A stretch of 20,908 nt of DNA, taken from positions 1-20,908 of IMG/VR virus record IMGVR_UViG_3300045996_000232; one strand, 5' to 3'. The notes under the pieces are model-generated. The model saw only the letters and a list, made by a program, of their open reading frames with translations. It was not told the DNA's origin and searched no databases. Source of the DNA: a virus. The translations under genes and the position numbers were made by a program. How positions within the stretch are numbered: the first letter of the stretch is position 1; each line of letters begins with the position of its first letter. Positions 7,997 through 20,908 of this stretch are shown piece by piece.

Positions 7997-8320
7997 ATGA
8001 GAACCTTACTCACATTCATCGCGTTGTTGATTGCCACACCAGCGTTCGCCATCAGTGATGCACTCGTCAACTATTGCCTCACTACCAGCAACCCTGAATT
8101 TTGTCTCAGGAACTCCATGGCTAACGAACAAGCCAACCGCGAGCAACGCCAGATGGAACACCAGATGGCCATTGCTGAAGAACAGACTCGAGGGATGGCT
8201 TTGTTCGGTGCAGGGAATGCCATGATTAATGGCATCAACCAGGGCTTTCGTCCGATGCCTACTCCCCCGCCTGTCACGTTCCAACCTATGGCCATGCCGT
8301 ATCCTAATGCTGGCAGATAA
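7997..8320 (+). CDS. Exported small protein on the opposite strand (moron)
   Basis: A 107-residue protein with a textbook Sec signal peptide (MRTLLTFIALLIATPAFA, cleavage expected after residue 18). The mature part begins with a short segment carrying two Cys (NYCLTTSNPEFC, 27 and 36), then a Gln/Glu/Met-rich helix (about 40-68), a Gly/Asn turn and a Pro/Met-rich tail. The ribosome binding site is AGGAGG six bases before the ATG. It is the only plus-strand gene inside about 19 kb of minus-strand late genes. Its stop directly abuts that of the 340-residue gene. A periplasmic location is likely in a Gram-negative host. The function is unknown; superinfection exclusion or envelope modification are possibilities only. 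Confidence 0.8.
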   Translation: MRTLLTFIALLIATPAFAISDALVNYCLTTSNPEFCLRNSMANEQANREQRQMEHQMAIAEEQTRGMALFGAGNAMINGINQGFRPMPTPPPVTFQPMAMPYPNAGR

Positions 8321-9343
8321 CTAATACTCATAGGGATTGGTTGGGGTTGTTTGCCAATCAATCCCAGCAGTATTAGGTTTGTTTCGGTTCATCAGATTAT
8401 TGAACATGCTGTAGTTCAGCCCCGCTCCGATGGCTCCAGTAGCTGCGTTGCCAATTCCAGTCGCCATGTTCGCGTAAGCGTTCCCTGCCCCAATGAGCCC
8501 TTGTGCAGCAGCGTTTCCAGCCCCTACTTGTAGATTGGAGACACCTTGAGCGGTTCCCGTGATAGCCCCTGCGCCTTGTGCGGCCGCATTTGCTCCGATC
8601 CCAAACATACCAGCCATTCTGCCCCATTGCCGTTCCTCTTCACCCACTATGCGAGCGTACTGGCGTTCTACTTCACCAGCTCCCAACTCAATCAATCCCC
8701 TGCGTTTTTCCTCAGCTTCAAAGCCTGAGCCGCTCAAGCCTCGAGCCGCAAAATGCCTGTCCATCTGTCGCCCGAGTAATTCAGATTGGAACTGATACCA
8801 TGGGGAGGCTTCAATATCCGCAACCGTTCGCGGTCTATTAGATGGCTGTTGTGCTTGCTGTGTTTGGAACTGCTGCGCTTGCGAGAATTGCAATTCAGAC
8901 TGCTTATTGAATGTGGCGAGCTTCGCTTCAGCTTCACGAATCTTCGACTGAACCGTGTTGAGTTCAGCATGGAAGGCATCACGCCTCCGCTCGCTCGCAT
9001 TCTTGCCGGTAAATGTCTGGTACGTTTCCCACTGCGGAATCGTCGCTTTCAGGCGGTCAATTTCACCTTGCAATGCTATCCTTTGCGTATCCGATGTGGC
9101 CCTGATCTGTTCCGGTGAGTACAGCGCATTGGTCATGGCGTACCCAGCGGTGAGGCCGAAATTCCTATAGGGGTCTAGGTAGGATAAGGCGTCACGCCCC
9201 GCAGCCTGAGTGGTCTGGATGCCTTGCATGGCTGCGTCTTGCTGTACCGCCGCTGCATCCTTGGCCGCTCCACTTTGCAGGAGACCGCCCGTCACTGACG
9301 CTCCCGCACCGACTACCGCTGCTGCTGCTATTCCCCAAGGCAT
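8321..9343 (-). CDS. DNA transfer / ejection protein, P22 gp7-like
   Basis: A 340-residue protein of the phage DNA-transfer type. It starts with a hydrophobic Ala/Gly region (GIAAAAVVGAGASVTGGLL), continues with a coiled coil (about 85-160), then the characteristic block SPWYQFQSELLGRQMDRHFA and ARGLSGSG (180-207). It ends with a glycine-zipper-like C-terminus of repeated GAGNA elements (about 245-310). In P22 the gp7 family is expelled from the virion to help DNA cross the envelope. The ATG at 9343 has a strong AGGAGG six bases upstream and overlaps the cupin gene by 16 bases. Family-level confidence is good, based on the central block and the gene order. Confidence 0.82.
   Translation of the reverse strand: MPWGIAAAAVVGAGASVTGGLLQSGAAKDAAAVQQDAAMQGIQTTQAAGRDALSYLDPYRNFGLTAGYAMTNALYSPEQIRATSDTQRIALQGEIDRLKATIPQWETYQTFTGKNASERRRDAFHAELNTVQSKIREAEAKLATFNKQSELQFSQAQQFQTQQAQQPSNRPRTVADIEASPWYQFQSELLGRQMDRHFAARGLSGSGFEAEEKRRGLIELGAGEVERQYARIVGEEERQWGRMAGMFGIGANAAAQGAGAITGTAQGVSNLQVGAGNAAAQGLIGAGNAYANMATGIGNAATGAIGAGLNYSMFNNLMNRNKPNTAGIDWQTTPTNPYEY
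8333..8365 (+). terminator. Strong hairpin just after the moron stop codon
   Basis: Bases 8333-8344 and 8354-8365 form a 12-bp stem (GGGATTGGTTGG with CCAATCAATCCC) and a 9-base loop. The single imperfect position is a G-U pair in plus-strand RNA but an A-C mismatch in minus-strand RNA, so the structure favours the plus transcript. It begins 13 bases after the moron stop, inside the end of the converging gene. No T-run follows, so it may be a pause, a stability element or a weak terminator rather than a standard one. Confidence 0.5.
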
Positions 9344-9654
9344 TCTGCACCTCCTGTCGGTACTAACATCGCCGCTTCAGCACTGGCTGTATGGTGAATG
9401 CAGACCAGCCGCGTATTTGGCATGAGCGATTCAAACTCATGTAATTTGTTCGCCTTGATTTCCACTGCCTCTCCAGCGCAGTAGTCTCCAGACTCAACCC
9501 CATCTACATAGAGAATCACAGCGCCAGAGGCCACTAGCGTTGCATGGTCGTATGGGTGCTTGTGCTGGGGGATTCTGACGCCAAGGCCCAGCAGTACAGA
9601 CCTGAAATAGAGGCCGGCGACATTCTCTTGAATACTCTCAACTAACTCTTCCAT
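9328..9654 (-). CDS. Small cupin-fold, probably metal-binding protein
   Basis: A 108-residue single-domain protein with cupin features: a His cluster HKHPYDH (31-37), strands running through LVASGAVILYVDG, a glycine turn (GDYCAGEAVEI) and a second-motif His72 in KLHEF, with further His87-88. This pattern implies a metal-binding jelly-roll, possibly for Fe, Mn or Zn. The ATG at 9654 has GGAG four bases away; the in-frame TTG at 9678 is less likely. It overlaps the oxygenase gene by 17 bases and the ejection gene by 16, so all three are co-translated. Whether it is an enzyme, a sugar epimerase-like protein or a virion part cannot be read. Confidence 0.75.
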   Translation of the reverse strand: MEELVESIQENVAGLYFRSVLLGLGVRIPQHKHPYDHATLVASGAVILYVDGVESGDYCAGEAVEIKANKLHEFESLMPNTRLVCIHHTASAEAAMLVPTGGAECLGE

Positions 9655-10225
9655 ACTTCTCCGTTCGTATGCAGACAATAAGAGTGATTCTGTCTCGCAC
9701 GCTGTTATTCTCTACCCAGTGCAGCTTTCGGTTATCGAATAGCCACACTTCACCTTCCTTCGGCTCTAGTCCTTCCTTGACTCCATCATGCTCGCACCAG
9801 AAGGTAGCCCCTGGGTCGTTCTGAATGCAGACATAGAACTTGTCGTAATATTGAACATGCCAGCCGTCATCGGTATGCGGTGCGATGCCATGACCTGGAG
9901 GAATGCGGGTTATAAGCACCCCGCCAAGCATCTCCCCTTCCGTTGCAGCCATCAGGTCCATCACAATGGGCTTCAACGATGGAATGACCGTCCAGGCTGG
10001 ATACCAGACCGGCACATGGGCATCATTGAAGGTGCGATAATCCCCGCTCTCCTCATATTTCTTCACATCGTTGTAGCGCACCCAGATATCGGACATGCCG
10101 CTATGCGGGGTGTTCGGTGCGGTCTTTCTAATGGTATGCTGGTCCCACAGTTCAGGGTGTGCCTCTAGCTGGTTCTTCACCCGCCACACGTTGGCACCAG
10201 CACCGATCTTCTGGAAATGCACCAT
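9638..10225 (-). CDS. 2-oxoglutarate/Fe(II) oxygenase, aspartyl/asparaginyl hydroxylase type
   Basis: A 195-residue predicted dioxygenase. The C-terminal half carries the double-stranded beta-helix core: GVLITRIPPGHGIAPHTDDG with the iron ligands His117 and Asp119, third ligand His169 (NRKLHWVEN) and 2-oxoglutarate-binding Arg179 (RDRITLI). The spacing fits the Asp/Asn beta-hydroxylase-like family. Family members hydroxylate amino acids in proteins, free amino acids or lipids; the substrate here is unknown. It lies between the tailspike-like gene (TGATG overlap) and the cupin gene. This position suggests modification of a virion protein or of the host surface. The catalytic assignment is strong; the biological target is speculative. 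Confidence 0.88.
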   Translation of the reverse strand: MVHFQKIGAGANVWRVKNQLEAHPELWDQHTIRKTAPNTPHSGMSDIWVRYNDVKKYEESGDYRTFNDAHVPVWYPAWTVIPSLKPIVMDLMAATEGEMLGGVLITRIPPGHGIAPHTDDGWHVQYYDKFYVCIQNDPGATFWCEHDGVKEGLEPKEGEVWLFDNRKLHWVENNSVRDRITLIVCIRTEKYGRVS

Positions 10226-11523
10226 CAGAACGCCGCTCCACCGTCAATGCGGAATCGCTGACCGCCAGCGTAGATAATCAGGTTCCTATCGCCGGCCCCG
10301 GCATCCTCAATCAGCATGGTCCCATTTCTCGCTGCTGCCGCAGCTGGGAGGCTTGCTGTAGCAATCACTTGGGCCAGGCTCACATCTGAGACCGTGCTAG
10401 GTCCGACAAGTATTTCCGTCATCAAATTGTTCTGCGTGGAACCGCTGCCGATATAGGTATTCCCTAAGCTAATCCGTACCTGACGAGTCCCGGTCACGAA
10501 TGGAGCCCCGTTCGGGAACGTGTTCCCGATACAAATAAGCGGGGTGCCATCACCCGACCCAGACGAACACCGCAGGAGCCAAGAGGCTTCATAGGTGCCG
10601 CTGGCTAAGTCATTGCCGATGAGGGTCAGCGGTCCACCCTTTTGATACTGGATATACTCACCGTCAGCATGGAGTGAATCAGGTGAGAGTCGGCAGTTGG
10701 AAATGGTGACCGCCCATTTATTCGAGTCTCCCCCAGTGTCCGTCAGGAAGCGGTCAGAACTCTCAGACTGGCACCCGTCAATGACAATCGTATCCGTGGG
10801 AGACCCAAGGTAAATATCGTTGGTATTCCCGCTGAAGTTCACGCCTCTTGCACGGAAGCTGCCGGCCACTGTCTGAATGCCGTTTGTGCGACTCACTAGC
10901 GCCCCGCCCGTTATCTCAATCCACTTCGATTGCGAATGGTTGATGAGGTAGCCATTGGTGCCAGAACCCGTGATATTGACATCTCGGAATGAATGCAAAT
11001 CGTTGTTGGCGGTCGAACTGTTCCCGATTTGAACGGCTGTGGTAGAGGCACCAATAGACAGCCGCTCATAGATATTGTGGGCAGCGAGCGTGCTCCCTGA
11101 CGGCGCACTGGCATGGTCCACGCGGATTCCAATACCGATGGTTCCGGTGCCTGGAATGATTGAGAAGCCGTGCATGTAGGAATCGCGGGTCCTGTCAAAT
11201 AGAACTACCGTGCCGCCATTGGTTCCGTTCCACTTAAAGGTGGTATTCAGGTTGGTGTCACCACTCCCACCGTTGCCTCGTAGCTCAATGTTCTGAAGGG
11301 CTGTGAGGTTGATCGTATCGGAGATGTTATAGATGGCCCCAGGCATGAACGTCACAAGCCCACTGGAACCAGCTTCCTCAATCGCTGCGTTAATATCGCT
11401 GGTTGAATCACCAGCAGATGGCTCCACCAGTAACCCGTTAAGGTTCAGATACCTGTGCAACTCATCCAGGTAGTCCAGCATTTCATCGGCGTCAGCGGTC
11501 CTTGGTGGTCGTTGTACCGGCAT
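10225..11523 (-). CDS. Beta-helix tailspike-like protein
   Basis: A 432-residue protein. The start resembles a short virion-attachment helix (DADEMLDYLDELHRYLN), then a pectate-lyase-like right-handed beta-helix from about 45 to 360 marked by repeated strands such as NIELRGNGG, SFRDVNITGSGTNGYLI and VTISNCRLS. The C-terminus (SLPAAAAARNGTMLIEDAGA to the end) looks like a recurrent fibre-end domain, possibly for trimerisation. The length is normal for a small tailspike. It follows the gp10-like gene with a TAATG overlap, in the place where P22 carries its needle gene. Such spikes bind or cut surface polysaccharide; no catalytic residues can be assigned by eye. Confidence 0.78.
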   Translation of the reverse strand: MPVQRPPRTADADEMLDYLDELHRYLNLNGLLVEPSAGDSTSDINAAIEEAGSSGLVTFMPGAIYNISDTINLTALQNIELRGNGGSGDTNLNTTFKWNGTNGGTVVLFDRTRDSYMHGFSIIPGTGTIGIGIRVDHASAPSGSTLAAHNIYERLSIGASTTAVQIGNSSTANNDLHSFRDVNITGSGTNGYLINHSQSKWIEITGGALVSRTNGIQTVAGSFRARGVNFSGNTNDIYLGSPTDTIVIDGCQSESSDRFLTDTGGDSNKWAVTISNCRLSPDSLHADGEYIQYQKGGPLTLIGNDLASGTYEASWLLRCSSGSGDGTPLICIGNTFPNGAPFVTGTRQVRISLGNTYIGSGSTQNNLMTEILVGPSTVSDVSLAQVIATASLPAAAAARNGTMLIEDAGAGDRNLIIYAGGQRFRIDGGAAF

Positions 11524-12953: not shown

Positions 12954-13810
12954 TAGTAATAGAGAACCTTGTTATGAATGCTGGTCGTCTGCGCCTGCAC
13001 CGATCTAAAGACCTTTTCGTGCGACTCGTTTCTAAGGCTGCGAAGCAAGTTCACCCGCTCGATAGGGGTGTTATGCCCCGGTGCTAACTCAATGGCGAGT
13101 TGCTTCTGAAGGAACAGTGACCAGCCTTGCGGCATGTCTGGGTTATCTGACGCAGCATCGAAGTCATAGAGTGGCCGCTTCAACTGAAGGCGTATCAGTT
13201 CAGGAGCCACGTAGCTGGTGCCTGAAGCCCACACTGAAGGCCCTGAACCACCCGATTCCCAATACAGCAGATAGTTGGCTCCAGTAATCGGCTTATTCTC
13301 ATCAGCGGCAGTATGCGCCCGTATGCATTTCCAGGCTGCGGCATCAGTCCCTGTCACCACTGACTGAGTATTCACGCTCGAGAGCATCGGCACCACATAG
13401 AGCGACTTGCTAGAAACTGTGGTGTTCTCGGTCAGGTAGACATAGCGCGGGTCGCCGGTCTCCGTCTTGTTCTCCAGCATTTCATACTGCTCAGTCGTCA
13501 GCACATCCAGCGGTTCATCATTGCCTGATGTGTTCCGATAGCTGGCACTCACAATGCTCAAGGCGCTACTGGAGAGCCCGTTGCTGGTGGTATAGACGAA
13601 GGTGTTAGCCACTAAGGTAATGCTGCTCAGACTAATGGCCCACAGGTGCTTGCCGGCCAAATCGTGCTCACGCATGATGAGGTTCAGCTTCTTAATGCCT
13701 GTATTCAGCAAGTCTGCTGAGAGTGTTTCCCCTTCGGCCAAGACCCCTAGATCCTTATAGGCCAGGTCAATCAGGTCGTTTCGAGTGACGTTGAAGTTAT
13801 TGGTAGGCAT
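12953..13810 (-). CDS. Head-completion / tail accessory protein, P22 gp4-like, with insert
   Basis: A 285-residue protein. The N-terminal helical part (TRNDLIDLAYKDLGVLAEGE, then KKLNLIMREHD and KHLWAI) and the C-terminal part (KRPLYDFDAASDNPDMPQGW, then LAIELAPGHNTPIERV) match gp4-type proteins that bind under the portal and start the tail. Between them, residues 150-205 hold an extra beta-rich piece with a WKCIRAHTAADENKP motif and a WASGTSYVAP strand. It resembles the small W/G/Y modules seen in carbohydrate-binding domains. P22 gp4 itself is shorter. The start at 13810 overlaps the stop of the previous frame region and is followed by the gp10-like gene, as in P22. Confidence 0.82.
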   Translation of the reverse strand: MPTNNFNVTRNDLIDLAYKDLGVLAEGETLSADLLNTGIKKLNLIMREHDLAGKHLWAISLSSITLVANTFVYTTSNGLSSSALSIVSASYRNTSGNDEPLDVLTTEQYEMLENKTETGDPRYVYLTENTTVSSKSLYVVPMLSSVNTQSVVTGTDAAAWKCIRAHTAADENKPITGANYLLYWESGGSGPSVWASGTSYVAPELIRLQLKRPLYDFDAASDNPDMPQGWSLFLQKQLAIELAPGHNTPIERVNLLRSLRNESHEKVFRSVQAQTTSIHNKVLYY

Positions 13811-14070
13811 TAGATGAGCCCCACAATCTTCGTTGCCGTGGTTCCGGTGCTATGAATCTTCTTGATGTAGATGGGGAGCACGCTACCAGCCGGCACCGAT
13901 TCAAACGTGACGGTAGAGCCATCGAACATCGTCACTTTCAAATCGCCAGTCCCGCCGACATATACCCCGCGCATCCAGAACTGAAGATCGTCAACATCTG
14001 AAGGGGTAACGGCTTTTGCGCCCCAGCTTGGCCCCTTGCTATCGCGTGGATGAAATGGTCCGACACCCAT
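13810..14070 (-). CDS. Spike-base-like small virion protein (RCAP_rcc01079 type)
   Basis: An 86-residue beta-rich protein. The pattern AVTPSDVDDLQ, then RGVYVGGTGDLKVTMFDG and TVTFESVPAGSVLPIYIKKI, ending in STGTTATKIVGL, is the signature of the spike base protein family first named from Rhodobacter gene transfer agent genes. Members are small structural subunits at the base of capsid spikes or tail parts. The length is normal. The ATG at 14070 has only a weak AGGAC ten bases upstream and follows the previous stop closely. It is located just before the gp4-like gene. The family call is from memory of the motif pattern. Confidence 0.8.
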   Translation of the reverse strand: MGVGPFHPRDSKGPSWGAKAVTPSDVDDLQFWMRGVYVGGTGDLKVTMFDGSTVTFESVPAGSVLPIYIKKIHSTGTTATKIVGLI

Positions 14071-14075
14071 AGTGG

Positions 14076-14939
14076 TTACAGTCCTATATAGAGGCCAATT
14101 CGAGAGAGTTGCCGCTGTGCGGGTGGAACTGGTGAGGCCACAACGACTCCACCGCTAACTGTTCCTTCCCCTGCCATTTCCGAGAATCCAGCCGCGAAGT
14201 TCCCAGCCCCAACCCATCGCACGGTGCCGACGCCAGCCATTTGCGCCGAATCTGACGCAAAGTCACCAGTTCCTGTAATTGGTTGTGGGGCTTGGGCATC
14301 CTGCACCGTACCCGCGCCGTCCATTGACGCCGATTGGCTAACAAATGCCCCTTGTCCCACCCACCTGACTGTGCCAACACCGGCCATACTTGCCGCTTGC
14401 GCCGTGAACGCTCCAGTACCAGTGATGGCTTGTACTGGTTCTGTGTAGGTAACTTGGAGTTGGGCCGAACTAAAGGCGACAGTTGGTGATGCATCAGTGA
14501 CACGGACTCCAAAGGCTGTGAGCCCGTTGGTTCCAACGCCATTGACTTCATCGACGGTCCAGGCTGCACCTGACTTGGGGTTGGTTGCGTAACTGTCGGT
14601 TCGCAGCGCAATGTTCGCATTGCCGTTGCCAGGGTTGTGCGTGGCCGCACTGTTCCGATTGGTTGTGTCATTGCACCGGAGCAGACTGCCAGCGACAGAA
14701 CCTTGCGAGCCGTTCTTGAAATCGTAGTACAGGACTTGAACGCTGATGCTGGTTGAGTTAGCCGGGACATCAAAGACGCTGAATCCCATGACCAGTGCGC
14801 CGGCCCCTGAACAGGTCGTAACATCGGCCGCAGGGTTGGCGCTGTCAGGATGGTCGTCAAGCAGCAAATGTCTGGACGTACCAGACCATGTGCCGGTAAC
14901 TGCAACCTCACTGGTTGGATTTCGTGTCTTTGTTGCCAC
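14076..14939 (-). CDS. Virion-type beta protein with four C-terminal repeats
   Basis: A 287-residue protein. Residues 1-168 form a compact beta-sandwich-like domain with recurring strands (SISVQVLYYDF, TAFGVRVTDA, SSAQLQVTYTE). Residues 173-261 carry four 19-residue repeats. The start is a GTG at 14939 just past the preceding stop. A nearby ATG at 14941 (TAATG) opens a different frame of almost equal length, but that product is Pro/Arg/Gln/Leu-rich nonsense. No clear ribosome binding site is visible, so initiation is probably coupled to termination of the upstream gene. No named family is recognised; location and composition suggest a virion structural or decoration protein. Confidence 0.75.
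   Translation of the reverse strand: MATKTRNPTSEVAVTGTWSGTSRHLLLDDHPDSANPAADVTTCSGAGALVMGFSVFDVPANSTSISVQVLYYDFKNGSQGSVAGSLLRCNDTTNRNSAATHNPGNGNANIALRTDSYATNPKSGAAWTVDEVNGVGTNGLTAFGVRVTDASPTVAFSSAQLQVTYTEPVQAITGTGAFTAQAASMAGVGTVRWVGQGAFVSQSASMDGAGTVQDAQAPQPITGTGDFASDSAQMAGVGTVRWVGAGNFAAGFSEMAGEGTVSGGVVVASPVPPAQRQLSRIGLYIGL
14157..14423 (-). repeat. Four 19-residue protein repeats, arranged as two pairs
   Basis: The repeats begin at residues 173, 194, 222 and 243 of the 287-residue protein. The pattern is xGxGxFxxxxxxMxGxGTV, for example TGTGAFTAQAASMAGVGTV. Repeats 1-2 and 3-4 are each joined by RW, so a two-repeat unit was probably duplicated (period 49 residues). Base-level identity is only partial, so the duplication is not recent. 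Confidence 0.75.
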
Positions 14940-14940
14940 A

Positions 14941-15318
14941 TTAGGCTGGTGCGGTGTAGGTTAGGCTGCTCACAGAGACTTCCTGTCCTGCCGAGACTGA
15001 CACGCTCCCTAATTCAATATCCCCACCACCGCCAGTCGCCGTGACTGAACCTGACCAGACTTCGGTTCCTGCCGAATCCTTGATCCGTACCTTGGCAATC
15101 GTGCCACCTGTAGCACTGGAATCAGCGGTAATGGCAGAGGCCGTCGCAACGCCGTTGGCCGCATTCCCAAACGCAGGGTCAGAGAAGGTGCAGGTCGCGA
15201 CTTCCACATCACCAGAGGTTTGAAACTCTAGCGTGCCGGCTCCCGCCCCTGCGTCTACCCGATCCACCACAGCATCGGCCATTGCGTTTCGTGTGTTTGT
15301 CGTATGAACTACCGCCAT
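14941..15318 (-). CDS. Small virion-type protein, unknown function
   Basis: A 125-residue Ala/Gly/Thr/Ser-rich protein with no signal peptide. The N-terminal part (TRNAMADAVVDRVDAGAGAG) is followed by a beta-sandwich-like region (GTLEFQTSGDVEVATCTFSD, KVRIKDSAGTEVWSGSVT) and a C-terminal strand (EVSVSSLTYTAPA). Such small Ig-like proteins are common between capsid and tail genes, but the exact family is not recognised. The ATG at 15318 follows GGAGG by eight bases; a start at 15333 would overlap the upstream gene further. It overlaps the upstream gene by ten bases. Confidence 0.7.
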   Translation of the reverse strand: MAVVHTTNTRNAMADAVVDRVDAGAGAGTLEFQTSGDVEVATCTFSDPAFGNAANGVATASAITADSSATGGTIAKVRIKDSAGTEVWSGSVTATGGGGDIELGSVSVSAGQEVSVSSLTYTAPA

Positions 15319-15536
15319 GTGAGCATCCTCCACATCCGTACATACCAGGGTGCGCTGTCAGTGCCTTGCATTGTGGCCCCTGGACGAACCCAGACGGCCC
15401 GACCATCTTGTATCCACTGCTCCACAAAGGCCGATAACGGACCAGATTCATTCCGTATCGTGTAGGTCATGCCTTCGCAGTACACGCTTTTCAATTCAGG
15501 TTCCGTAAACGTCTTGAGGCATTTGAATGATCGCAT
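15309..15536 (-). CDS. Small phage protein, unknown function
   Basis: A 75-residue protein without signal peptide. It has a pattern of charged and aromatic residues (KSVYCEGMTYTIRN, AFVEQWIQDGRAVWV) suggesting a small alpha/beta fold, and two early cysteines. The ATG at 15536 overlaps the stop of the preceding gene (TAATG). An in-frame GTG at 15548 has no better ribosome binding site. Similar small proteins of unknown role occur in structural gene clusters of tailed phages, but I cannot name the family. Confidence 0.65.
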   Translation of the reverse strand: MRSFKCLKTFTEPELKSVYCEGMTYTIRNESGPLSAFVEQWIQDGRAVWVRPGATMQGTDSAPWYVRMWRMLTWR

Positions 15537-15970
15537 TAGTGTAGACACTCCACAATTCGCTTGAGGCCAGAGCCAGTTGTTTTGAGAGACGTACAGGCCA
15601 TCCCGGTGACCTCAATCTTATTGGCGTCAAGCTGCTTGGCCGTGATGTTGGTGACTGACACAGGGCTTTCTAGCGCCTTCACCCGCGTATCCAATGCCGC
15701 TACTACGTCCTGCCAGCCCGTATCCACATCGGCAAAGTACCGCGCCACATTGGACGATGGCCCACCATTCGGGACAGTGAGCTTGTAATAGCCGAACTCC
15801 GTAATGGGATAGCTCGGTGGATAGGCTGGAATCTCTTTAATGGGGGTGAACGGCCCGCCTTCATTCGCACTGTATTCCAACAGCAGGAACCCATCGGCAG
15901 TGTCATCCCAAATGAGCGAGGCCGCCTGAACTGGGGCTGCAAATATCAGTATGAAAAATAGAATCAGCAT
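15536..15970 (-). CDS. Exported beta-domain protein, unknown function
   Basis: A 144-residue protein with an N-terminal signal peptide (MLILFFILIFAAPVQAA, cleavage expected near 16). The middle (SLIWDDTADGFLLLEYSANE, YYKLTVPNGGPSSNVARYF) resembles a fibronectin type III-like or other Ig-like sandwich. This is followed by a short helix (VAALDTRVKALESP) and a strand-rich end with two Cys (ACTSL and VECLH) that could pair in an oxidising compartment. The ATG overlaps the upstream stop (TGATG). It is one of four consecutive signal-peptide genes. The function is unknown. Confidence 0.72.
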   Translation of the reverse strand: MLILFFILIFAAPVQAASLIWDDTADGFLLLEYSANEGGPFTPIKEIPAYPPSYPITEFGYYKLTVPNGGPSSNVARYFADVDTGWQDVVAALDTRVKALESPVSVTNITAKQLDANKIEVTGMACTSLKTTGSGLKRIVECLH

Positions 15971-18657
15971 CAGAATCCAATCCCCGTAGATGGTGAGACA
16001 ATCGTGAGACAGGCCCCGGCACTAGGCGTGTACGTATCCAGTGCGGTCCCTTCCTGCGAATACGCCTTAAAACAATGGGTATCGCCTGCCGTGGCGCTTG
16101 GCCCAATCTTAATGACGTAGCGCAAGACAATCGAGCCGTTTTGTGCTAGGTCAAAGACCGGCACTGCCGAAGATGTTTGCTGTGTGCTGCCATCGTTTTG
16201 CGTTAAGGCACCAGTCAGGCAACATGAGACGGTTCCAGTCAGAATGTCTGGATCTCCAGACACCCCGTAGAACGAATGATTGTAGGAAGCAAAGGCGTCT
16301 GGGACGGCAATGAACGTGTTACTGTTCACATTGCCGAGCAAGCGAATCCCGAGCGGGTCACAGTTCGCAACCGTGCAGTCAATTTGCAGGTCCAGAATCA
16401 CCGCACCGCCCACCATGACTGGCATCGTCGCCGCCGCCGAGCCGTAGGATTCAATGGCCCCGCCAGCAGTTTTCCTGAGCTTGCGCCATTGATGGGTCTT
16501 TTGCTCAAACGTACCTGTAGGGGACGGCGCTGGTTCTTCCCATGCCGCATAATCATCCGCACATGAGGCGACACTGGTGTATAGAATGAACTCGTCAAAC
16601 GTGTCATTCACTGGCGAATAGGCAACTAGGTTGTCTTGCACGGCTCCGAGCCGGAAGTTTGAGGTAAAGCTAAACGAGGTATAGGTCTTGGTTGAGGCCC
16701 CGGCTGTCGTCCCAGCAGTCCCGTTAATATAGAGGGTTGCCGTGTCAGTCCCGCTATCTAGGTTTAGGCACACGCGGGTCCAGCCTGCACTGACAGAAAA
16801 CTCCGTCGTATCACCGAGCCCGTTATTCTGTATGCCAAGCTGCCAGTTCCCGCTAAGACGGGACAACAGCAGCATCGTACTGGCACCGAATTGCGGGCCA
16901 AAGAATGTACGTGTAGAACTTTCTGTTCCAGGGTACGGCAACACCGAAAAGGCGATGGTCAAGGATTGCGTGGACGGGTCGATGGCATTGCCGTATGGGA
17001 TGGCAATGTAGTCATCGTCCCCCAGCATCTTCACGCCATAGTCACCGCTATGGCCCGTATTGAACTCTGGACCATTCGTCAAGGTTCCATCGTCGTCACC
17101 GCCTGATCCGTCCTCAAGGTTTGTGCCAGTTCCCTCATCCATCTCATAGCTAATGTCATCACCGGCAGGCGGCGTGCCGCCGCTTCCAGTACAGACCTCT
17201 GTGACGCCTTGCGTGGTGAAGGCAGTCGCCTTTTGGTATAAGGGAAGCGTAATCCCGAGTCCCGCGCTGTCCGTGAGGGTGCCGGGAGTGTACGTCACGG
17301 TCCAAGTCTGCCCCACCGCACAGTTTCCAGTGCCGCCAATTCCAGTAATGGTCAACCGCACCACACTATCAGTCGCCGCCTTCAGACTTGCACTTGAGAC
17401 AACAGGAGTCCCGCAATTTGACCCAGTGCAGCCAACGGTAAAGTTTGCTGCTGTGATGTTTGTCACTGGCACGTTCAAATTCATCAGGAAACTGACATCC
17501 ATTGATGCTGCGTCAATCGAGGCGCTCGAGAATCCGAATGTTTCAAATGCCCCCTGGTCACAGGTATCGTTACAGGCATTCCCTGACGCATTCGTGCCAG
17601 TCCCAATCGCCGCACTGCCGGCCTTCAGCGTCAGATCGTGATTGGTAGGGTCAACAAAGATGTCTGTGGCTGTGCCAGATGTCCGGTTCGTTGTTTGTGT
17701 CGTCGTGCCGTTCGCACCGGAAATGTTGGTGCCATGTCCCAACACAATGTTGTTTCGTAGAATGACGTTGCTACAGGCCCCAATCGTGATTCCATTGGTC
17801 CCTGAGTTATAAATCGTGTTGTTTTCTACTAGCGTCCCGGTGCAACTTTGGAGGTCAAGGGTGAGACCGTAGGTGCCGCTCACAAAACTTGACCCGCGCC
17901 GAATGACGTTCCGGCGAAAGGTGTGCGGCCCACGCGAGAGGTAGACGTTTGAGCCCCCAACGTTATTCTGGTTATTGTCGTAAAACGTATTCTTCTCAAC
18001 CAAGACGTTGGTTGCACTGGGGTACAGTTGCATCCCGTGCGCCCCATTGCCATAGACCTCGTTTCCTGAAATCACCATGCCAGAGGTCGTCCCGCCGATA
18101 TAGATCCCGTGGCATTGGTTCAACGGCTGAGTGACGCACCCGATCCCGTTGTTATAGATTTTATTTCGCAGCAGTTTGTTGCCGTTCCCTGCCCCTAGGT
18201 AGCCCTGCCACTTTCCACCGCTCGATTCGCCGTCCTCGAACGTGATGTTGTTGGAGGTACCGAGAAAGACGAGGTGGTTGTTCGGCGTGGTGCCAGTGAC
18301 CCGTATCCCGTGGAAGGTAATGTAGGCTCCACTTTGCAGGTCAATACTCCTGATAGACACGACCTCCCCGTTGAAATTGGTAATGGTCGTTCTCACGCTA
18401 TCGCTGGTTCCGCTTGTGATGCTGCCGGTAATATCTTCGTTGTACGTGCCGGTCCGTATGGAGATTGTGTCGCCAGCCGCTTCACAGCCCAGCGCACTGG
18501 CAATGGTCAGTTTCGGCAAGGTCGGATTTCCCGATCCGTCCACTGTTGAGGCTTGGACACAGCTATTGCTATTGCTGCCAGTCTTGGCCACGTAATAGGT
18601 CGTGGCATTGGCGAGAGTCGGGAACAGAAGGAACAGAGCAAAGAGAATCTGTATCAT
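15970..18657 (-). CDS. Large exported beta-helix and LamG-like protein
   Basis: An 895-residue protein. A signal peptide (MIQILFALFLLFPTLANA, cut near 18) precedes a right-handed beta-helix (about 19-370) with NosD-like repeats such as LLRNKIYNNGIGC, VISGNEVYGNGAHGMQL and LVENNTIYNSGTNGITI. Next come an Ig-like domain (about 375-485), a LamG/concanavalin-like domain (about 500-705, DDDYIAIPYGNAIDPSTQSL to DTFDEFILYTS) and a Cys-containing C-terminal domain (715-895). These are carbohydrate-binding and adhesion-type folds. The ATG at 18657 overlaps the upstream stop (ATGA); an in-frame start at 18699 would put 14 residues before the signal. It could be a tail fibre with an export signal or a surface protein made by the lysogen. 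Confidence 0.8.
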   Translation of the reverse strand: MIQILFALFLLFPTLANATTYYVAKTGSNSNSCVQASTVDGSGNPTLPKLTIASALGCEAAGDTISIRTGTYNEDITGSITSGTSDSVRTTITNFNGEVVSIRSIDLQSGAYITFHGIRVTGTTPNNHLVFLGTSNNITFEDGESSGGKWQGYLGAGNGNKLLRNKIYNNGIGCVTQPLNQCHGIYIGGTTSGMVISGNEVYGNGAHGMQLYPSATNVLVEKNTFYDNNQNNVGGSNVYLSRGPHTFRRNVIRRGSSFVSGTYGLTLDLQSCTGTLVENNTIYNSGTNGITIGACSNVILRNNIVLGHGTNISGANGTTTQTTNRTSGTATDIFVDPTNHDLTLKAGSAAIGTGTNASGNACNDTCDQGAFETFGFSSASIDAASMDVSFLMNLNVPVTNITAANFTVGCTGSNCGTPVVSSASLKAATDSVVRLTITGIGGTGNCAVGQTWTVTYTPGTLTDSAGLGITLPLYQKATAFTTQGVTEVCTGSGGTPPAGDDISYEMDEGTGTNLEDGSGGDDDGTLTNGPEFNTGHSGDYGVKMLGDDDYIAIPYGNAIDPSTQSLTIAFSVLPYPGTESSTRTFFGPQFGASTMLLLSRLSGNWQLGIQNNGLGDTTEFSVSAGWTRVCLNLDSGTDTATLYINGTAGTTAGASTKTYTSFSFTSNFRLGAVQDNLVAYSPVNDTFDEFILYTSVASCADDYAAWEEPAPSPTGTFEQKTHQWRKLRKTAGGAIESYGSAAATMPVMVGGAVILDLQIDCTVANCDPLGIRLLGNVNSNTFIAVPDAFASYNHSFYGVSGDPDILTGTVSCCLTGALTQNDGSTQQTSSAVPVFDLAQNGSIVLRYVIKIGPSATAGDTHCFKAYSQEGTALDTYTPSAGACLTIVSPSTGIGF

Positions 18658-19472
18658 CGTGCGTAGGCATCCTCTGGTAAGAATGGGGACAGTAACCAAG
18701 ACAAAAAGATCGGCAATGACGGACGGCGTGACGCTGCTGCGGCTTTAATTTCAATCCCGATACCGCCAGCGTCCCTGCTCACCCATGTTGCGCTTGGAGA
18801 TGTGTCGTTCGTGGCAAGAAATTCCACTTCAAGCTGCGAATCGTGACCACTGCCGTCCGTTCCAGTCACATCTGCGAGTTCGGTGTACCCGCCCTCGTTG
18901 GTAATGGCGACGTTATCCGCGAGACCAAACGTAGCAAGCGTGGCGTTCCCTGCGCTACCGAATGCCGCCAGCGCAAGCGTTAGGCCCGTTCCCGGTTCCT
19001 GCAAGTCAGTGTCGCTCTGGACAATCGCCCCAGAGCCGTTCGTGCCGCTCGTATCGACGCCGGTACACTCAACGACAACCCACGCCATCGAGGTCGCCCC
19101 TTCATTGACATCCCACGTAATGTGAACTGCCGTTCCAGTCGGTGAGGCTCCCATTGCGCGATGCAGAGACAGAATGTAAGACGGTGCCGCCGCCGATGAA
19201 AACGCTTGTCTCGCAATTTGGACGTATGTGAGGTTGTTGCCGGTAAGGGCTATCACCTCTGTCGCAGTCGTATCGTTTTCAGCCCGAAGCGTAGCGACTA
19301 GTACCAGTGCGTTCGCCGTTGGTGTGACTGAAGCCGTATCGTAGCCAGTCGCCTTCGTGGTGTTAGTTTCGCTGTATCCTGATGTCAGTAAGGCGCAGGA
19401 CACGGCTGCTTGTGCCTGTTCTGTCACAAACAGCACGCACAGAACGGTCAGTGTCAGTAGTAAACGCTTCAC
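18654..19472 (-). CDS. Exported beta-rich protein with hydrophobic C-terminus
   Basis: A 272-residue protein starting with GTG at 19472, preceded by GAGGAG seven bases upstream. A signal peptide (MKRLLLTLTVLCVLFVTEQAQA, cut near 22) is followed by a beta-sandwich-like domain (TPTANALVLVATLRAEND, AVHITWDVNEGATSMAWVVV and a closing GGIGIEIKAAA). The last 20 residues (LPIFLSWLLSPFLPEDAYAR) are unusually hydrophobic for a virion protein and might be a membrane contact. No named family is recognised. It is coupled to both neighbours: the GTG directly follows the upstream stop, and its stop overlaps the next ATG. Confidence 0.72.
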   Translation of the reverse strand: MKRLLLTLTVLCVLFVTEQAQAAVSCALLTSGYSETNTTKATGYDTASVTPTANALVLVATLRAENDTTATEVIALTGNNLTYVQIARQAFSSAAAPSYILSLHRAMGASPTGTAVHITWDVNEGATSMAWVVVECTGVDTSGTNGSGAIVQSDTDLQEPGTGLTLALAAFGSAGNATLATFGLADNVAITNEGGYTELADVTGTDGSGHDSQLEVEFLATNDTSPSATWVSRDAGGIGIEIKAAAASRRPSLPIFLSWLLSPFLPEDAYAR

Positions 19473-20834
19473 CTAGTCACTCCTCGACGTGACGCTGTAT
19501 TCCATCTTGAAGCCGATGTGGTGGAGCGTAGCAACTGCCGTGGTCGTTCCTGTGGCATCTAACTGATAGCGCCAGTACAGCATGTCACTAGCCGCACAGG
19601 TGCCAGCCGGTGTCACAGCCGCCGATGTCGTAAAGTCGTTCTGATTGCTGCCCGTGACGCCAGCATCGTCAATGGCTACTTCTGTGCCCCACGTGCTAGA
19701 CGGAGCTTCACCGTTGCCACGGCATTGCGCTGCAATGTCACCATTTAAGGCTGAAGTATCTGCCGCCGTTTGAAGGTAGACATGCTCAAACGTGACTGTG
19801 CCGCCATCCCACGAATCGGGCATCTTGACTGAGCCGTAAATAGTCGAAGCATCGTTATCCGTACAGATGATGGTCCAGATTTTGGGACCACTATTGATCG
19901 TGACTTCCGCCGGAGCAGCGCATTGGGTGCCGTCAGTTGACAGCGAGCCTGCCCCGAAAAAGATCGACTTGAGCGGGCGATAGGACGTGTTATAGGTCCA
20001 GACGGCCTTGACGGATGCTGCGTCCGGGTCAACTGTCTCTATGCACTCCGTCGATTCAATGTTGTAGAGGCACCAGTCAAAGTTTGTGGGGATGATGGTA
20101 CGTGTATTTGCATCGGTGCATGGCCTGACCTGTGGGCCAAGTGATGCATCGGTGTAAAGACACATCGGCGTGACACCATCCCCGATTCTGACCGCATTCG
20201 CTAAACTGTTGGCTCCCGTGATTTCCTTCCCACCAGTTTCAGCAAACACCGTCTGAAGCGTATCAACCTCAGTAGTAAGGACCGGCACCCATGTATCGGT
20301 GGTGTCGCAGTAGTAGAACTTCAACCCGCTGGTCGCGTCCGTATCCACATACACATCACCAACCGTGCAGTTGGCTGGAAGCGTTGTGCTGCTTGATACG
20401 GCCGTCACAGTGCCGCCGCCAGCTCCACCGCCTCCACCGCGCCGTGCGAGCGTCAGCAATCCTTTGACCGTCACAGTCCCGCCTGTGTAGGCCGATACTC
20501 TGGCTCTAAACTGTGCGAACCCAGCCACGTTACAGAAGTACAATCCGCTCGATGTAGCTGAAGTCACAAGGGCTCCCGATGTACTCGCTGTTGACGTACA
20601 AACAGACGACACCCAGTTGGAGCCATCAGTAGTTGCTTCAAACGTCACGGTAGCGGTATCGCTAATGACCACCTGAACTCCAATGGTTCCCCAGCCTTCC
20701 ACTTGCAAGGCGGTCCCGTCCCCAGTGGCAGACACCGCGTCTTGCATCACCTGTACCGGCTTAAATTCTCTTGCTGCCCAGACCGGACCAGCTAAGATGA
20801 GGCCCAGAAGGACCCCTAAGACTATTTTCCGCAT
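19473..20834 (-). CDS. Exported multi-domain beta protein, probable fibre-like
   Basis: A 453-residue protein. A signal peptide (MRKIVLGVLLGLILAGPVWA, cut near 20) is followed by a beta domain (about 22-130), a glycine linker (RRGGGGGAGGG near 131-141), a small motif typical of fibre proteins (LPANCTVGDVYVDTDATSGL and YYCDTTDTWVPV), and a C-terminal beta-sandwich with many Cys. The linker and modular layout suggest an extended appendage. The ATG at 20834 has AGGAGG four bases upstream. It overlaps the end of the partial upstream gene by 13 bases. The role is unproved; it could be a virion fibre or an exported surface protein. Confidence 0.75.
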   Translation of the reverse strand: MRKIVLGVLLGLILAGPVWAAREFKPVQVMQDAVSATGDGTALQVEGWGTIGVQVVISDTATVTFEATTDGSNWVSSVCTSTASTSGALVTSATSSGLYFCNVAGFAQFRARVSAYTGGTVTVKGLLTLARRGGGGGAGGGTVTAVSSSTTLPANCTVGDVYVDTDATSGLKFYYCDTTDTWVPVLTTEVDTLQTVFAETGGKEITGANSLANAVRIGDGVTPMCLYTDASLGPQVRPCTDANTRTIIPTNFDWCLYNIESTECIETVDPDAASVKAVWTYNTSYRPLKSIFFGAGSLSTDGTQCAAPAEVTINSGPKIWTIICTDNDASTIYGSVKMPDSWDGGTVTFEHVYLQTAADTSALNGDIAAQCRGNGEAPSSTWGTEVAIDDAGVTGSNQNDFTTSAAVTPAGTCAASDMLYWRYQLDATGTTTAVATLHHIGFKMEYSVTSRSD

Positions 20835-20908
20835 AGATCCTCCTGACTCATGGCAATGACTAACGAATCCCCATACACACGGATGTCCTCGAGTAACCCT
20901 AGTGCTTT
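20822..20908 (-). CDS. C-terminal end of an upstream gene, cut by the window edge
   Basis: An open frame enters from the right edge and ends at TAG (20824-20822), overlapping the start of the 453-residue gene. The visible 28 residues (KALGLLEDIRVYGDSLVIAM, then SQEDLCGK) look like ordinary soluble protein, and this is the only natural-looking frame at the edge. The identity cannot be judged from so little. Confidence 0.5.
   Translation of the reverse strand, partial: KALGLLEDIRVYGDSLVIAMSQEDLCGK

Follow-up and report, generated by a model that had tools for sequence, protein, structure and literature searches.

Why would a phage carry, in its late region, four consecutive genes whose products all begin with a Sec-type signal peptide? 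The prevailing view is that fibres of tailed phages are assembled in the cytoplasm, and late phage proteins with export are known only as single, scattered examples. The question is posed by a 20.9 kb (20,908 nt) fragment of an uncultured virus (IMG/VR record IMGVR_UViG_3300045996_000232, positions 1–20,908), hereafter the window, in which an earlier note had described a run of four late, translationally coupled genes for signal-peptide proteins with β-rich, Cys-containing mature parts, and had read them either as exported virion fibres or as a surface adhesin operon. The four open reading frames, here named SP1 to SP4, are present as described.

Layout of the late region

All four genes lie on the minus strand. 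SP1 (20834–19473, ATG start, 453 aa) encodes a signal peptide (MRKIVLGVLLGLILAGPVWA), a YomS/XepA-like β-sandwich, a Gly-rich linker and a C-terminal jelly-roll-like domain, with 12 Cys in the mature part, and SP2 (19472–18654, GTG start, 272 aa) encodes a signal peptide (MKRLLLTLTVLCVLFVTEQAQA) and a β-rich mature part with 2 Cys. SP3 (18657–15970, ATG start, 895 aa) combines a signal peptide (MIQILFALFLLFPTLANA) with a variable β-helix, Ig-like and LamG-like domains and a conserved C-terminal domain, its mature part containing 20 Cys, while SP4 (15970–15536, ATG start, 144 aa) consists of a signal peptide (MLILFFILIFAAPVQA) and a mature part of 128 aa with 2 conserved Cys. The SP1/SP2 junction is 0 nt, and SP2/SP3 and SP3/SP4 overlap by 4 nt and 1 nt, respectively, in agreement with the proposed translational coupling; strong Shine-Dalgarno sequences are found for SP1 and SP2.

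Beyond SP1, the window closes with the 3′ end of an upstream late gene (20822–20908, minus strand, stop codon at 20822–20824), which ends in KALGLLEDIRVYGDSLVIAMSQEDLCGK directly before the stop, as in the related contig L002, and whose last 28 residues match the methyltransferase/MptE-like protein of that contig. The first 13 nt of SP1 overlap the end of this gene, and the gene arrangement therefore places the SP1–SP4 block within the late operon. The SP1 start shows an overlap in L002 too, again with the MptE-like gene, and in another relative, L011, where the overlapped gene is that of the portal. A promoter search limited to the sigma-70-like type found no match in 13000–20908. The virion operon is marked by a head closure Hc3/P22 gp10-like gene (12953–11523, minus strand; phrog_578, E=3e-44), and the window further contains a conventional tailspike-like gene without a signal peptide (10225–11523, minus strand), whose N-terminus is conserved and C-terminus variable among relatives, a DNA-ejection protein gene (9343–8321) and, at its left end, an integrase gene (65–901). 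Host contamination of the contig was ruled out, as the block is flanked by phage hallmark genes and also occurs in virus relatives.

Several other features of this region were observed. A lone opposite-strand gene (7997–8320, plus strand) between ejection genes encodes a product that starts with a signal peptide (MRTLLTFIALLIATPAFA) and has a Cys pair in its first part; its leader is kept in the relatives L008, L027, L010 and L024, its middle varies, and the product is a candidate exclusion-type protein. At 14076–14941 (minus strand), two long ORFs of 287 and 285 aa overlap almost fully in different frames, and both are open in L002 too (15851–16713), possibly reflecting dual coding or a composition effect. 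An aspartyl/asparaginyl β-hydroxylase-like gene followed by a cupin-like gene lies inside the late region (9328–10225, minus strand). Between SP4 and the neck adaptor (13810–15548, minus strand; L010:10010–13999), the small genes are replaced wholesale among relatives, the L010 region holding one further signal-peptide gene of 393 aa. The methyltransferase fused to an MptE-like domain (L002:8328–10013; window 20822–20908) adjoins the coat-gene region, and a homologous gene is kept at the same place in L022 and L028, which lack the block. In L002, ADP-ribosyltransferase (ART-PolyVal) and HNH-like genes that are absent in the window are inserted between two neck genes (17836–19388).

Signal peptides and cysteine patterns

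Signal peptides were scored with a simple rule set of our own, calibrated on 13 known E. coli signal peptides (range 4.65–5.98). SP1, SP2, SP3 and SP4 scored 6.03, 5.97, 5.0 and 5.36, respectively, and by the same rules all four leaders are of the n/h/c type with an Ala-X-Ala-like cleavage site, the predicted cuts being GPVWA↓A, EQAQA↓A, TLANA↓T and APVQA↓A. The signals of SP3 and SP4 are weaker because their leaders lack a charged n-region. None of the four mature parts contains a TM-like segment. Among 437 genes in nine control phage sequences, 15 were SP/TM-like, including lambda Lom, Bor and Rz and none of the virion genes of P22, lambda or Pam5; from this base rate, four signal genes in a row would be expected by chance with a probability of ~1e-6 per position. 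The host's envelope type would have to be read from a spanin-like lipoprotein, the only clue to it.

The signal peptides extend to the homologues, on which the earlier note had proposed signal prediction. With the same rule-based predictor, a signal peptide was called in 23/23 members of the SP1 family, the window included, where L069 required a later start for the call, and in 18/18 members of the SP3 family, with the SP3 of L067 just below the cut-off; L004, an SP2 relative without a called signal whose start is uncertain, was left out. The SP2 leaders of the window and L002 have little in common although their mature parts align well, and across the relatives the leader sequences diverge while the signal property is kept.

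The mature parts are β-rich and hold more Cys than the window's other late genes (2.1% versus 0.8%), in line with the character claimed for them. The number of mature Cys is even in all 23 SP1 family members, ranging from 2 to 14, and among proteins with at least 4 Cys from 23 phages it is even in 55/57 with a signal peptide versus 48/89 without one (Fisher p=3e-9, a value that is only indicative because the relatives are non-independent). Perfectly co-varying pairs of Cys columns were found, for example at mature positions 285/304 and 351/393 of SP1 and 344/348 and 844/865 of SP3, and the SP1 pair C305/C324 is lost together in L002. The distant relative L073, which lacks a signal, has one Cys. 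Even Cys numbers together with paired gain and loss imply, at the level of sequence, the signature of disulfides and of folding in an oxidising compartment. As such patterns imply disulfides, they join the conserved signals as a second, independent line of support for export, and real export of the block proteins appears strongly supported. Chance hydrophobic N-termini were ruled out by the base rate, the conservation in homologues and the Cys parity. The broader proposal, that the N-termini are hydrophobic by chance or act as uncleaved anchors and that the proteins are ordinary, cytoplasmically assembled fibres, draws on the missing charged n-region of SP3 and SP4 and on the purely rule-based predictor; set against the 23/23 conservation, the even and co-varying Cys and the base rate, we regard it as extremely improbable.

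Predicted folds and spread among phages

The predicted model of SP1 (pLDDT 79) has an N-terminal β-sandwich matching the folds of YomS (target TM 0.83, 1.9 Å) and XepA (1.6 Å), a match that is restricted to this domain and has about 20% identity, and a well-predicted, jelly-roll-like C-terminal β domain with carbohydrate-binding-module folds among its PDB matches. The model matches many proteins of uncultured phages, and in the relative L075, SP1 has a segment shortly past the signal peptide that recurs in proteins annotated as tail fibres in HMO-2011 and Sulfitobacter phages. Neither Pfam nor PHROGs yielded a family for SP1, SP2 or SP4, with one non-significant PHROG match for SP2, and sequence searches of SP1 and SP2 against solved structures gave nothing significant.

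For SP3, the earlier note's β-helix was confirmed by a Pfam Beta_helix match (E=1e-13; right-handed β-helix), and the predicted model (pLDDT 73) matches the folds of the pectate lyase Pel9A and tailspikes; the β-helix also has weak matches to PL6 lyases and C5-epimerases. The LamG-like part of that claim held at the level of fold matches to LamG/ConA-like domains on the model, with no LamG profile match in SP3 above the curated cut-off; the L011 homologue has a sub-threshold Pentaxin match (E=9e-4). The Ig-like domain is our own reading of the strand pattern in the model. Clostridial neurotoxins are also among the fold matches, through their receptor-binding domains, but with an identity of ~10% these matches reflect the widespread LamG/ConA-like jelly-roll and were not taken as kinship to the toxins. 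The β-helix is the most variable part of SP3, with 23–30% identity to the window against 21–60% for the remainder. Its positions conserved at 80% or more are mainly G, N, Y, P and T; D occurs twice among them and K, R and H not at all, and no catalytic set is shared across relatives. As these conserved positions are structural, recognition seems likelier than a conserved enzyme, and binding rather than cleavage would be our guess. L008 combines a nearly identical tailspike with a diverged SP3, so that a close tie of SP3 to receptor choice becomes less likely.

Homologous blocks, mostly of three to five consecutive signal-peptide genes, are present in one MAG contig and in about 20 contigs of IMG/VR; profile searches with SP1 and SP3 had yielded some 20 further contigs, from many metagenomes. 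The survey of related phages suggested in the earlier note thus revealed a conserved block. Nearly all relatives carry two to five consecutive signal-peptide genes, and the apparent gaps in L010, L055 and L067 likewise hold signal-peptide genes. In L002, all four genes lie between coat-g85-g242-methyltransferase/MptE and the neck genes, L010 and L024 have variants of the block, and no block is present in L022 and L028, whose coat proteins are homologous. A different phage, L011, with portal phrog_12082 and head phrog_9953, has SP1–SP4 inserted between portal and scaffold; its DNA is no longer similar to that of L002 past the SP4 stop codon, and in the remainder the two share only weak methyltransferase/MptE-type similarities, the portal and capsid belonging to other families and the terminase having no detectable similarity. 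In total, the blocks occur on at least four unrelated phage backbones, including those with MCP phrog_334 and portal phrog_156 (the window type), phrog_9953 (L011) and phrog_3437 (L013, L048) and that of L075, a phage with a central tail fibre J. Its position varies as well: the block follows the coat gene, the portal or tail/ejection genes, or it precedes the terminase or, immediately, an endolysin gene (L047). The best reading of these comparisons is that it represents a widespread mobile cassette of late genes, a mobility and spread beyond what the earlier note saw.

SP1, SP2 and SP3 had no sequence match in about 50,000 deposited phage records, nor did two divergent relatives. In bacterial genomes, Hc3 had no match and the SP1 C-domain was found only in one Proteobacteria MAG contig, which carries a phage with a central tail fibre J; within the phylum of that MAG, 1/395 genomes was positive for the C-domain, the same genome. 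Literature searches returned no description of such a cassette.

Possible roles of the putatively exported cassette

The closest comparisons each cover part of this picture. XepA (PBSX) and YomS (SPbeta), lytic-cassette proteins of Bacillus subtilis prophages, resemble SP1 in their N-terminal β-sandwich fold and late expression, and the export of XepA would parallel that predicted for SP1; they differ from the block in lacking SP2–SP4 partners and in having a Gram-positive host. According to passages of the XepA crystal-structure paper, the protein is exported during phage development, is absent from particles and has no transmembrane regions, and these passages describe no Sec signal (PMC6834076). 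By analogy, XepA would provide a precedent for an exported late phage protein outside particles. The podoviruses MW202481 and HMO-2011 share with the block the runs of fibre/lectin genes, MW202481 having a fibre, lectin and adhesin run at the corresponding place, between coat and head-closure/neck genes, and HMO-2011 a long fibre cluster; the segment of L075 SP1 resembles HMO-2011 tail fibre. By contrast, these clusters have no signal peptide and a Cys content of 0–0.8% in most genes, and the cassette looks like their exported, disulfide-bonded counterpart. Lambda Lom is also a signal-peptide protein from a late tail region, but it is a single outer-membrane β-barrel expressed in lysogens, whereas the block comprises four soluble-looking multidomain proteins in one coupled unit. 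Pel9A and other secreted carbohydrate enzymes share the right-handed β-helix with SP3, which differs in its extra Ig-like, LamG-like and C-terminal domains and in having no catalytic residues conserved across relatives.

Taking together the conserved signals, the late-operon coupling, the spread across unrelated phages, the disulfide-type Cys patterns and the predicted folds, we consider it reasonably probable that SP1–SP4 form a mobile cassette of late genes for Sec-exported, disulfide-bonded fibre/adhesin proteins that act at or outside the envelope and are probably not in virions. The proteins would be made alongside the virion genes and exported by Sec, their signal peptides would be removed and their Cys pairs converted to disulfides in the periplasm, and they would fold into β-rich, probably oligomeric, lectin/adhesin-like structures that then act outside the infected cell or leave at lysis. 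Most likely, they would bind glycans on the surface of their own host and thereby keep progeny and sibling phages from being lost to infected cells or debris (receptor masking); alternatively, they may help release from the surface. The fibre/adhesin character suggested in the earlier note is retained because of the tail-fibre-type segment of L075 SP1, the SP3 β-helix with its LamG-like fold and the SP1 jelly-roll; its export is retained as well, and a late exported set outside the virion is favoured because the set accompanies heads and tails of unrelated kinds and an ordinary tailspike-like gene is also found in the window.

Counting against this preference, the virion-operon position and the L075 segment also fit virion fibres. 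The proteins could acquire their disulfides and fold in the periplasm and then be added to completed particles, as decorations of head or tail, while the cell lyses or afterwards, which would also agree with the many uncultured phage proteins matched by the SP1 model and with an SP3 β-helix as variable as those of tailspikes. However, the association of SP1–SP4 with unrelated portals and capsids would require a common docking site on the virion, a conventional tailspike-like gene is already present, and we know of no late-joining exported fibre in tailed phages; we rate this as the main alternative, though an unlikely one. Rather unlikely, too, is its elaboration into a two-compartment virion maturation, in which Sec-exported fibres with periplasmic disulfides are attached when lysis mixes the compartments and the cassette moves between unrelated phages. 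The matches of SP3 to Pel9A and, weakly, to PL6 lyases and C5-epimerases, along with the endolysin gene directly after the block in L047, would suit a secreted complex that degrades polysaccharide or aids release by loosening the surface matrix of the host at lysis. We find this role improbable, given that the conserved β-helix residues are structural ones such as G, N and Y and include no common catalytic set, and that in the window and several relatives the lysis genes are far from the block, which occupies the head-neck region. Adhesins of lysogenic conversion, displayed by the prophage host, would be in keeping with the integrase gene and with lambda Lom, an exported, tail-region-encoded protein expressed in lysogens (PMC12309495), but the tight coupling to late genes with no sigma-70-like promoter match, and the near absence of the set from bacterial genomes (one MAG contig), make this very improbable.

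A multi-gene, fibre-like mobile set whose SP1, SP2 and SP3 are unmatched in ~50,000 phage records suggests that infection by environmental phages commonly ends with a step that has gone unrecognised. It makes testable the ideas that the periplasm serves as a phage folding compartment, that the host is coated before lysis and that virion parts are gained after lysis.
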